Of a stretch of 34,649 nt of DNA, positions 30,969 to 34,555 are shown piece by piece. The first letter of the stretch is position 1, and each line of letters begins with the position of its first letter. The notes beneath the pieces were generated by a model. That model saw only the letters and a list, made by a program, of their open reading frames with translations. It made no database searches and had not been told where the DNA came from. A program made the translations under genes and the position numbers. The stretch lies in contig JAGLMD010000090.1 in the NCBI GenBank assembly GCA_023140175.1, positions 1 to 34,649 of the forward strand, in the 5' to 3' direction. The stretch is from Nanobdellota archaeon. Its GTDB lineage: Archaea; Nanobdellota; Nanobdellia; Woesearchaeales; WJIZ01.

Positions 30969-31274
30969 ATGAAAGTACTGTTTATATGTAATCAAAATCA
31001 AAATAGAAGCAAAACAGCAGAAAAGATGTTTAGCAATAGCTTTCAGACTAAGTCTGCTGGATTGTATAATTCCAGGCCAGTTACAAAAAAACAGATTTCT
31101 TGGGCTGATACAATAGTTGTTATGGATGATGAGCAAAGGAAAGAAGTAGCAAAAAGATTTCCATCTATTTATTTGCAAAAGAGGATTCTTTCTTTGGGTA
31201 TTCCTGATATTTATCATTATAATCAGCCTGAGCTTATCAATTTATTTAGGTTAAAAATGAAGGAATTATTGTAG
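30969..31274 (+). CDS. Protein-tyrosine-phosphatase-like protein
   Basis: CX5R loop CNQNQNRS; MKVLFICNQNQNRSKTAEKMF; ADTIVVMDDEQ. Confidence 0.75.
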   Translation: MKVLFICNQNQNRSKTAEKMFSNSFQTKSAGLYNSRPVTKKQISWADTIVVMDDEQRKEVAKRFPSIYLQKRILSLGIPDIYHYNQPELINLFRLKMKELL

Positions 31275-32060
31275 CCATTCTTCAAACTGCTCAAATTTCT
31301 CACCACCAATATTCTGAAGCAAATTCTCACTAAGCACACTATAGCAGTAATCCATAATCTTCTTTAGATTAATTACATCTTCCTCATTATATTCTACCAA
31401 TAGGTTCAGATAATATTTGTCACCTGTTGCTTTGTACATTCGCCAGAGGGTTAGAGCATCTCCACCATAGAATTTCCCAATTATTTTGTTTCTTTGTATA
31501 TTGAATTGTTTTTCAATATTTTTTAGGCCGCCATTCAAGCCAAGCCTTGAGCAGCAATGCCTTAAATCTATATGCGGCAGATTTGGGAGAATATTGCAGC
31601 GTTTTTTTATGAATGGCAAATCAAAACTCGAGCCATTAAAAGTTATAATTAGTTTGTATTTTTTGAGCTCTTCTTTAAGGGCATGATAATTGAGGTTTAT
31701 GCCATTTATCATGGTCTTAGTTTCCAGGCCATCATAAAGGCCAATAACTGTAATATCTGCATTTCTGCCAAGGCCTTCTGTCTCAATATCCAGGAAGACT
31801 GCTTCTTCTTTGAAAAAATCATATAAACGCCATGTCTCTGTTGAATGAAGCTTGTCTATAAAATAAGATGAATCAAAGGAGTAAAGGGCTTTCTTTGCTT
31901 TGATAAGCTGCCTGTTGAAATATGATTTTTTGTTTTGTGAGATGCCTTTTATTCTTTTCTTGTCTATGAAAGCCTGCCAAGTATCTATGTTTTGATGCCA
32001 GAGGCTTTTTTCCTTATTTTCAGCTACTCTCTCAAGTATCTGGAATGTATTTCTTATCAC
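31266..32060 (-). CDS. YprB-type RNase H-like 3'-5' exonuclease domain protein
   Basis: AVFLDIETEGLGRNADITVIGLYDG; LIITFNGSSFDLPFIKKRC; IDLRHCC; LVEYNEEDVINLKKIMDYC. GTG start about 27 nt after a TATA (ctatataaac, minus strand). Confidence 0.8.
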   Translation of the reverse strand: MIRNTFQILERVAENKEKSLWHQNIDTWQAFIDKKRIKGISQNKKSYFNRQLIKAKKALYSFDSSYFIDKLHSTETWRLYDFFKEEAVFLDIETEGLGRNADITVIGLYDGLETKTMINGINLNYHALKEELKKYKLIITFNGSSFDLPFIKKRCNILPNLPHIDLRHCCSRLGLNGGLKNIEKQFNIQRNKIIGKFYGGDALTLWRMYKATGDKYYLNLLVEYNEEDVINLKKIMDYCYSVLSENLLQNIGGEKFEQFEEWLQ

Positions 32061-32591: not shown

Positions 32592-32756
32592 AAACTGCAG
32601 TCCAATAGTAAAAATAATTAAAATTTAGCCCCGAAATCCCGAAAATATCGGCAAGTTCATATAAAAACGGTTAATTGCAATCGGGAGAAAGGGCTAAAAA
32701 AAGTAAGGGGCAAGAAAACAAAAAGTTTAATATATTGCATGTTGATATAATGATAT

Positions 32757-33329
32757 ATGAAGTTTAAAAATTGGTTTTCAACCAAACAGATCGGTTCAAT
32801 ATTCTTTGTTGTAGTTGGATTGTTTCTGTTTTCTGTCAAACCTGATGAAGCATTTGAAACACTTCGTTTTTTTGCTATTATTATGATTGTATTATCTGTC
32901 TTACAATTTTGGAATGAATCAGTTAGAAGATATAAAATTCTAGTACCTTACAAAAAAAATAGATATGATTCAGGAGCAGAAGAAAAAATTGCTGCTTACT
33001 TCAAAAGAAAGAATATTATTTACAATCATCATCCTGAAATAAAAGTTCCAAAACCATTTTGGATATTTACAATCCCTTTTGTAAATATTAAGTTAGAACC
33101 GGATTTTTTTCTTCCAGAATTTGATGTATTTGTAGAATATTGGGGTCTGATAAATGATCCCGAATACAAAAAGAAAAGTTATGATAGAAAAAAGAAGTTG
33201 TACAAAGATAATGCACTTGATTTTATATCATTATATCCGAAGAATTTGAGTAATTTAGATTTTGTTTTTACAAGTAAACTTTTAGATTTGATTAAAGAAA
33301 GAGATGGTAATCTAAGGAAATATAGATAG
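32757..33329 (+). CDS. Membrane-anchored putative PD-(D/E)XK-like nuclease
   Basis: N-terminal TM (IGSIFFVVVGLFLF ... FFAIIMIVLSVLQFW), then 'DSGAEEKIAAYFKRKNIIYNHHPEIKVP...LEPDFFLPEFDVFVEYWGLINDPEYKKKSYDRKKKLYKDN'. Confidence 0.7.
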   Translation: MKFKNWFSTKQIGSIFFVVVGLFLFSVKPDEAFETLRFFAIIMIVLSVLQFWNESVRRYKILVPYKKNRYDSGAEEKIAAYFKRKNIIYNHHPEIKVPKPFWIFTIPFVNIKLEPDFFLPEFDVFVEYWGLINDPEYKKKSYDRKKKLYKDNALDFISLYPKNLSNLDFVFTSKLLDLIKERDGNLRKYR

Positions 33330-33392
33330 TTTTCTTGCCCTTATTTCTTGTTCTTGATGTTATCGCATTCGCTCTTTTTATGGAACGCCCCT

Positions 33393-33767
33393 TCTCCCGA
33401 CTTTTCGGACGAAATTTGACCCCACTTTGTAGGGTCAAAGAAACTAACAACAATTAGTTGCAATTTTTTTCTATTGATGATTATTATGATAATTCATTTG
33501 TCGGAAAAAATAATAACAACATAGGGTTCACTCACGGCTAAAATTTTCTTTGAAAATTTTATCCTATTCCGAAAGGTAAAAACCATACTCTGTATGGTTT
33601 TTCCCTCTCTAGTCAGAGTTCACCAATGTTATTATTTTTCCCTCTCTATTATTATCAGACAGCACTTCGTGCTTCAATAATCTACATGATAATCAATAGA
33701 AAAAAACTCTTCGCCTATCGGCTCGTTTTGCCCCACTCTGTAGGGCAAAAGCAACTAACAAGAATTA
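33393..33767. repeat. Nested hairpin cluster with two diverged direct repeats
   Basis: Direct repeats 33420-33456 and 33731-33767 (5 mismatches in 37). IR tttttttctattgat (33464-33478)/atcaatagaaaaaaa (33692-33706). IR ggaaaaaataataaca (33503-33518)/tgttattatttttcc (33628-33642). Hairpins at 33415-33439, 33539-33561, 33578-33602, 33661-33673, 33726-33750. Confidence 0.9.
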
Positions 33768-33813: not shown

Positions 33814-34080
33814 TTACCCATATATTACCTCATGGTGATCAAAATCTTCAAACGAAACAAATTCTCTTGATACATCATAGGAAAATACTAAGACAAAATG
33901 TCCTATGTGAACTCTTTTTGATTCTTTCATATCGTGTCTTAGATTTTTGTAGTGCTCTACATCCCCAGAATTCACTACTTCACCTATCTTCTTCAATATT
34001 CTTTCATATATTAACTTATCTTTCTTTGATATCTTAATTAATTTCTTTTCAAGTTCTGGCTTAATCTCAAATTCACGCAT
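33814..34080 (-). CDS. RelE/ParE-superfamily toxin
   Basis: MREFEIKPELEKKLIKISKKDKLIYERILKKIGEVV...KRVHIGHFVLVFSYDVSREFVSFEDFDHHEVIYG; overlaps the antitoxin gene by 8 nt. Confidence 0.85.
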   Translation of the reverse strand: MREFEIKPELEKKLIKISKKDKLIYERILKKIGEVVNSGDVEHYKNLRHDMKESKRVHIGHFVLVFSYDVSREFVSFEDFDHHEVIYG

Positions 34081-34315
34081 GTTGGATGTGTCTCCTTAAT
34101 TCATCGACACTACTGAATTTGACTCCCTTCTGTTTCTTTATTCTATTTAACTTCTCAATATACTCAGGTCTAAGTTGGGGCTCCAATAATTCTTCCTCAA
34201 ACTTATTAATAACAAAATTTACAGCGTCAGATTTATTTTTTAATCCATACTTACCTTTCACGATAGTAAGAACCCTATCTTCACGATCTCCCAGATTGAC
34301 AATTGCTTGAACCAT
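34073..34315 (-). CDS. DUF2683-family antitoxin
   Basis: MVQAIVNLGDREDRVLTIVKGKYGLKNKSDAVNFVINKFEEELLEPQLRPEYIEKLNRIKKQKGVKFSSVDELRRHI; directly upstream of the RelE-like toxin. Confidence 0.85.
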   Translation of the reverse strand: MVQAIVNLGDREDRVLTIVKGKYGLKNKSDAVNFVINKFEEELLEPQLRPEYIEKLNRIKKQKGVKFSSVDELRRHIQHA

Positions 34316-34405
34316 ATTATCACCTTTATTATAATTTATAATAAATAATAATAAAATATTATATAAATGTTTCGATTTTCTGGGACCTTTTATTCATTAA
34401 CTAAA

Positions 34406-34555
34406 AAGATCTTCGAGCTTGATACGAAAGTCTTTTTTGAACTCGAAAATCCTAAAGACTTTATTTATGCAAGCTTAAAACAGTTTTTATGGATTTTCGT
34501 TTTCACTTCGTGAAAAGAATATAACAAATGTTACACATCCATAAAACGAACACTG
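34406..34555. repeat. Second hairpin cluster upstream of the toxin-antitoxin operon
   Basis: AAGATC-TTC-GAGCTT (34406-34420); AGCTTG/CAAGCT enclosing AAAGTCTTT (34427-34435)/AAAGACTTT (34454-34462); TTTTATGGAT (34485-34494)/ATCCATAAAA (34537-34546) enclosing TTTTCAC-TTC-GTGAAAA (34500-34516). Confidence 0.8.

Follow-up and report, generated by a model that had tools for sequence, protein, structure and literature searches.

Results

A composite region beside a toxin-antitoxin pair

What is the dense cluster of nested hairpins at positions 33393-33767, beside a toxin-antitoxin pair in a 34,649-nucleotide stretch of archaeal DNA (hereafter the window, meaning the whole stretch that was analysed)? 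An earlier note, made from the sequence alone, had proposed a structured RNA or a folded single-stranded DNA (ssDNA) element. We found no coding sequence in the region other than a 70-aa ORF that looks spurious, and both of its strands fold 9-12 SD better than dinucleotide-shuffled controls, with z-scores of −9.1 (plus) and −10.1 (minus) using RNA parameters and −9.5 (plus) and −11.9 (minus) using DNA parameters. An equally good fold was seen in 0/100 shuffles for each combination of strand and parameters. The repeats and hairpins which the note had described are present: an outer inverted repeat at 33464-33494 and 33676-33706 (31 nt at 81% complementarity, the outer 15 bp pairing perfectly), an inner one at 33503-33518 and 33627-33642 (94% complementary), the hairpins TAAAATTTTC-TTT-GAAAATTTTA (~33538-33562) and AAAAACCATAC-TCT-GTATGGTTTTT (~33578-33602), and several further local hairpins, all of their stems nested and none crossing. 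The right arm of the outer repeat is adjoined by a hairpin AGCAC-GAA-GTGCT (~33661-33675, minus strand).

The convergent gene layout also held, in that a plus-strand 190-aa ORF (ending at 33329) and a minus-strand ParE/RelE-like gene (33814-34080) face each other across the region; the label "nuclease" given to the former finds no support from Pfam, where this ORF has no match. Inverted repeats CGGGAGAAAGGG...GGGGCAAGAAAAC / GTTTTCTTGCCC...CCCCTTCTCCCG (32680-32720 with 33330-33400) flank the 190-aa ORF, which suggests that it too lies inside a mobile or structured unit. The note had recognised no resemblance to tRNA, rRNA or a simple terminator, and Rfam 15 at the gathering threshold returned nothing except tRNA for the window and 13 homologous loci, while at a permissive threshold the window gave chance-level matches only (E up to 5).

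The earlier reader missed a 42-bp direct repeat (33415-33456 and 33726-33767, 83% identity), and with it the fact that two or more repeat families are combined here. Searches by BLAST and with covariance models resolved the region into two kinds of module, which we call element a and module b. It is a mobile three-way-junction repeat with a copy of a second hairpin module on either side, and one of these two copies travels with the toxin-antitoxin pair. The secondary structure proposed by the earlier note is real and conserved, and its DNA alternative is better supported than its RNA alternative, but this is not a single element. The refuting conditions which the note had set were tested and left its proposal standing.

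Conserved structure of element a

On the minus strand, element a (33503-33642; covariance-model score 118-133 bits) forms a closed three-way junction. In an alignment of 63 copies this consists of a long outer helix P1 (33627-33642 with 33503-33518), a helix P2 with an internal loop or bulge (~33616-33624 with 33525-33533) and two hairpins, P3 (33571-33609; covarying helix 4) and P4 (33536-33564; helices 5-6), both of which also appear in the fold of the window copy. The apex of P3 is of the TAC-(NNN)-GTG type, here ATAC-AGA-GTAT; a 2-nt UG bulge near its base is visible in the alignment, and the hairpin can be as short as three base pairs or as large as a long arm into which sub-hairpins are inserted. 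P4 lies inside a conserved AGG...CCGT which closes it. The 31-nt imperfect outer inverted repeat, which encloses element a, is outside the conserved covariance model and the family. An early suspicion of a tandem-GA k-turn in P2 was abandoned; this motif is not conserved, and several subfamilies have a continuous helix instead.

Standard pairs occupied 95.5% of the pair cells in the 63 copies, against 70.6% after shuffling and 43.5-60% in slid controls. Double changes were found at 48 of 49 pairs, with 658 doubly changed cells observed against 175 expected; kinship among the copies inflates these double-change counts, and the slid controls retain that kinship. The outcome was the same for 71 further copies, taken separately from two other genomes (91.3% paired versus 70.0%). 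Compensatory changes exceed both the shuffled and the slid controls, and element a is a nucleic acid of conserved structure. The homologues with compensatory changes which the earlier note had called for were found by covariance-model searches, such changes being already visible among the five homologues from the first rounds of BLAST.

Family size and distribution

Our comparative data are metagenome-assembled genomes (MAGs). With a covariance model built from six copies, element a was found in 36 of 288 sampled Woesearchaeales genomes. A second model, built from 63 copies, identified at least 390 copies in 14 genomes, including at least 32 in G111, at least 47 in G152, at least 53 in G178, at least 68 in G169 and at least 106 in G187, a genome of ~1.5 Mb; these counts are lower bounds, since no more than 150 candidates were scored in each genome. 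Every positive genome in a phylum-level sample belonged to the same order, Woesearchaeales, and in an exact-pattern scan of 85,462 genomes nearly all matches were from Woesearchaeota, together with one from Aenigmatarchaeota and one bacterial match which is probably due to chance. Two subfamily patterns had no exact match among 2.9 million viral contigs. No description of the family was found in a search of the open-access literature. Element a is apparently a large, undescribed family of short branched DNA repeats in these uncultivated tiny archaea.

Solitary halves of the element were also seen. Within 765 kb, solitary 3′ halves (n = 12) outnumbered solitary 5′ halves (n = 3), and at L231:6615-6692 and L233:5217-5240 solitary 3′ halves lie in tandem directly downstream of full copies.

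Placement and mobility

In 765 kb from two congeneric genomes (G169 and G187), 87% of which is coding (ORFs of at least 80 codons), 63 of 66 copies were intergenic. Relative to the element, the genes on either side took the four possible strand arrangements about equally often (17/16/16/15). This rules out that the element acts in general as a leader, attenuator or terminator, and a cis-regulatory role was rejected on the strength of this random orientation to genes.

Two copies from one genome (L131 and L133, G031) are 99% identical, and their flanks are at background identity directly outside P1. Other similar pairs likewise have unrelated flanks; a few share flanks, and these may represent larger duplications. 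Four copies in G187 which lie in bounded syntenic gaps are absent from G169, where the gap is 200-218 bp shorter at three of the four sites, which suggests that a unit of ~200 bp was inserted. Where both genomes have copies, the regions mostly differ in orientation or gene content. Of the 16 occurrences of a 20-nt hairpin, ACATGTCCTCCGGACCTAGT, in G187, 9 lie 31-80 nt 3′ of an element copy and on its strand; this hairpin is a possible second end of the G187 unit. Taken together, the mobility of element a is well supported: its intergenic placement, its freedom of orientation, its absence from syntenic gaps and its unrelated flanks point to a mobile repeat similar to miniature inverted-repeat transposable elements (MITEs) or REPs rather than to a leader or terminator.

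No signal of target-site duplication was detected (4.59 observed versus a null of 4.65 ± 0.09). Nor was orientation linked to GC skew (33 of 66 copies), and there was no replication-strand bias. Adjacent copies were head-to-head in all three pairs in G169 and G187, with further cases in G248 and G267. It should be noted that the arms of P1 are nearly always complementary, yet the outer P1 sequence differs among copies of one genome, which is unusual for an end that is read by a transposase.

The folded strand: DNA or RNA

We found that G-U cells far outnumbered A-C cells (182 versus 26 in the 63 copies, and 108 versus 29 in a further count), which identifies the minus strand of the window as the constrained, folded one. 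With RNA parameters the sense strand gave the better fold of the two in 132 of 133 copies, by a mean of 9.2 kcal/mol, and with DNA parameters it did so in 131 of 133. Of 265 apical loops, 174 were triloops, 84 of these being c(GNA)g; 5 were GNRA and none were UNCG. GNA loops closed by C-G form extraordinarily stable DNA mini-hairpins (PMC4686876). These loop types are moderate evidence for folded DNA and fall short of proof, since triloops are also found in RNA. The c(GNA)g triloops, together with the gene-independent orientation, the high dispersed copy number and the presence/absence turnover, lead us to prefer DNA; the balance leans that way over structured RNA by roughly 2-3 to 1, and we infer that the active form is DNA.

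Module b and the toxin-antitoxin unit

Module b is a 59-nt double hairpin which occurs twice in the window as a direct repeat, both times on the minus strand. Copy 1 (33397-33455; 81.7 bits, model R3) comprises GTTAGTTTC, the hairpin CTTTGACCCTAC-AAA-GTGGGGTCAAA and a small hairpin TTTC-GTCC-GAAA. Copy 2 (33708-33766; 58.5 bits, R3) is on the 3′ side of the toxin-antitoxin genes, as read in their direction. On the opposite side of the gene pair, GTTATATTC followed by TTTTCAC-GAA-GTGAAAA (34485-34532, minus strand) is a module-b-like site; the model match is weak (18.2 bits, E = 0.24), and the layout is also visible in the sequence. Both genes are on the minus strand: a toxin gene of the ParE/RelE superfamily (33814-34080; PF05016, E = 0.011, under the Pfam cut-off) and an antitoxin-like DUF2683 gene (34073-34315; PF10884, E = 6.8e−10). 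The unit which holds them (33814-34440) has a 78.6% identical paralog, toxin gene included, on contig C23 of the same genome (L050:482-1113), and the homology of this duplicated unit stops at the module-b hairpin.

A T-G wobble at pair 25-33, which pairs on the minus strand only, lies just below the apical triplet in 16 of 16 module-b copies. Their apical motif, TAC-NNN-GTG, also tops P3 in many copies of element a, and the module-b model gave weak matches (22.9 and 23.4 bits) to the corresponding P3 hairpin of two copies, those in C28 and G018. Close pairs of module b were in direct orientation in 8 of 8 cases, and two such pairs, in other genomes, bracket genes of toxin-antitoxin type: a PIN toxin pair in G152:C31 and several pairs in G015:C29. 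In relation to neighbouring genes in general, the orientation of module b was not significant (18 versus 12), and for this reason we do not call it attC. Both in the window and in G178:C123, modules a and b share their orientation and are no more than 100 bp apart. Modules b may be sites of the same enzyme as element a, or of a related one.

Three further observations were made around module b. A third branched hairpin module, of the GGAAAATTCGG-TCGCTTACGC-TAAATCGCCAAGCGATTT-CCGAATATTTCC type, adjoins it in many genomes of the order and was seen just 3′ of it (plus orientation) at L023, L024, L029, L031, L035, L041 and L043. A small palindrome, TTAACAGG...CCGATGTTAA, comes after module b in some cases (L022:1540-1566, also L026 and L032) and looks like the core site of a tyrosine recombinase. 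In two genomes of different families, an RNase_H_2-type gene lies near the module-b/toxin-antitoxin region, in the window at 31266-32060 and at L265:6992-7744 (G152:C31), the latter judged by eye from its N-terminus; a shared integration neighbourhood and conserved synteny are candidate readings of this common neighbour.

Search for a mobilising enzyme

No Y1 transposase was found in the copy-rich genomes G169, G178, G246, G031 and G005, which as MAGs may be incomplete, and its absence from several genomes rich in copies was our reason for rejecting an IS200/IS605 or RAYT origin. No protein in 21 genomes scored over the cut-off for the integron integrase (TIGR02249). Only 14 of 134 copies of the element have the R-box pair RYYYAAC...GTTRRRY, and 6 of 16 copies of module b have GTTRRRY. 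No recurrent gene family was found beside the 66 copies. XerA-like tyrosine recombinases are widespread and lie near copies in G187:C40, G031:C92 and G018:C5; they look like the universal chromosomal housekeeping XerA, as the G018 gene stands among ribosomal and RNA-polymerase genes. An autonomous copy carrying a gene between split halves was also considered, and the candidate split pairs in the 765 kb look like chance.

Discussion

We consider it probable (about 0.6) that the core at 33503-33642 (minus strand) is a copy of a non-autonomous mobile DNA repeat family whose folded single strand is read by a putative enzyme. One particular single strand folds into P1, the junction-bearing P2 and the arms P3 and P4, often with c(GNA)g-type caps. 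A candidate enzyme of the host or the element would recognise the strand in this fold, and not terminal repeats in double-stranded form. The enzyme would then excise or copy the folded unit, which measures ~95-180 nt or, in one lineage where an accessory hairpin lies on the 3′ side, ~200 bp, and would insert it into intergenic DNA in either orientation and without target duplication. That a structure-reading enzyme moves element a is our inference, and the evidence on the other side is that neither a mobilising enzyme nor a gene family recurring beside the copies was found. The missing link to GC skew also counts against an ssDNA route, as lagging-strand transposition predicts one if skew marks the direction of replication. 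A wider proposal is tentative: that the Woesearchaeales harbour a novel class of mobile elements which act as ssDNA folds and have a structure-reading recombinase or transposase of their own. The TAC-NNN-GTG code with its T-G wobble would then mark both the dispersed three-way-junction repeats and the hairpins around toxin-antitoxin and other cassettes, and one enzyme would drive both the spread of repeats and an integron-like traffic of cassettes.

Could element a instead be a conventional MITE of a DDE insertion sequence, with double-stranded terminal inverted repeats and with covariation arising from cruciform-templated repair and shared ancestry? The near-perfect P1 arms look like such repeats, its many intergenic copies and their AT-rich surroundings are typical of MITEs (PMC10969869), and transposase-like genes lie beside two copies (G055:C45 and, as a fragment, G000:C28). 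We nevertheless regard this as unlikely, given the missing target-site duplication and the variable outer P1 sequence within a genome; templated repair, moreover, leaves the conserved junction and bulge sequences, the strand-specific wobbles and the loop type unexplained. A functional RNA transcribed from the minus strand, either the product of a small-RNA gene in many copies or a part of an mRNA that acts in cis (leader, terminator or stability element), would account for the strand-specific G-U wobbles and compensatory changes, which are typical of conserved RNA, and for the sense-strand advantage in RNA folding, and some copies do lie upstream, in sense, of infB-like and thrS-like ORFs. This reading seems quite improbable to us, however, because the four arrangements of neighbouring genes are equally common, because at least 106 copies in a 1.5-Mb genome with turnover between congeners is unlike a housekeeping RNA, and because the loops are c(GNA)g triloops instead of GNRA or UNCG and there is no Rfam match.

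The last alternative is an integron attC cluster (CALIN), the hairpins being attC sites of gene cassettes which include a toxin-antitoxin cassette. CALINs are on record from archaea, Nanoarchaeota among them (PMC9668308), and both the direct orientation of close module-b copies and the end of the duplicated toxin-antitoxin unit at a module-b hairpin are in keeping with one. The scarcity of R-boxes in both modules, the failure of any protein to reach the integron-integrase cut-off, the dispersal of element copies without orientation to genes and the non-significant orientation of module b make this very improbable.

If element a is a mobile repeat of folded ssDNA, DPANN archaea gain a high-copy, structurally constrained mobile repeat, and around a hundred such insertions per 1.5 Mb are unexpected in small, dense DPANN genomes. 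Both the asymmetry of the strands and the chemistry of the loops favour natural selection on a DNA fold over selection on an RNA fold, something seldom visible in comparative data. Such repeats also break assemblies and can be confused with RNA genes or attC sites. Were one enzyme to read both the repeats and the cassette-bracketing hairpins, this would be a new ssDNA recombination system.

Comparison with known systems

The subterminal hairpins of IS200/IS605 elements are read as ssDNA, and these elements make no target duplication. Element a would also be read as ssDNA and shows no sign of target duplication either, but differs in that the whole unit is one closed fold, with no Y1 link and no GC-skew orientation bias. 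Prokaryotic MITEs such as ERIC, BOX and QMITE2 share with it a length of 100-200 bp, an intergenic and AT-rich placement, terminal inverted arms and a non-autonomous nature; element a, however, has no target-site duplication, its arm sequence is not conserved and its interior fold is strand-specifically constrained. The functional form of integron attC sites and CALINs is a folded single strand, as is proposed here, and the direct repeats of module b around toxin-antitoxin genes recall them, whereas here R-boxes are rare, the integrase was not found and element a is dispersed rather than arrayed. The layout of the toxin-antitoxin units bracketed by module b is like that of Xer/dif (pdif) modules (PMC6449649), a resemblance only; the sites here are hairpins.

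Differences are also seen from the REP/REPIN sequences of TnpA-REP (RAYT) systems, in that element a is archaeal, forms a much larger branched three-way junction (95-180 nt, with no conserved 5′ GTAG, against a REP core of 20-60 nt with 5′ GTAG) and occurs in several copy-rich genomes without a Y1 transposase. The likeness lies in being short, palindromic and intergenic, in tens to hundreds of copies with compensatory changes, and in forming inverted doublets in places, as in the head-to-head adjacent pairs (3/3) of G169 and G187. REPs and REPINs are thought to move as folded ssDNA (PMC3116915, PMC8266576), and with at least 106 copies in one genome and 63 of 66 copies intergenic, element a likewise belongs among high-copy extragenic palindromes.
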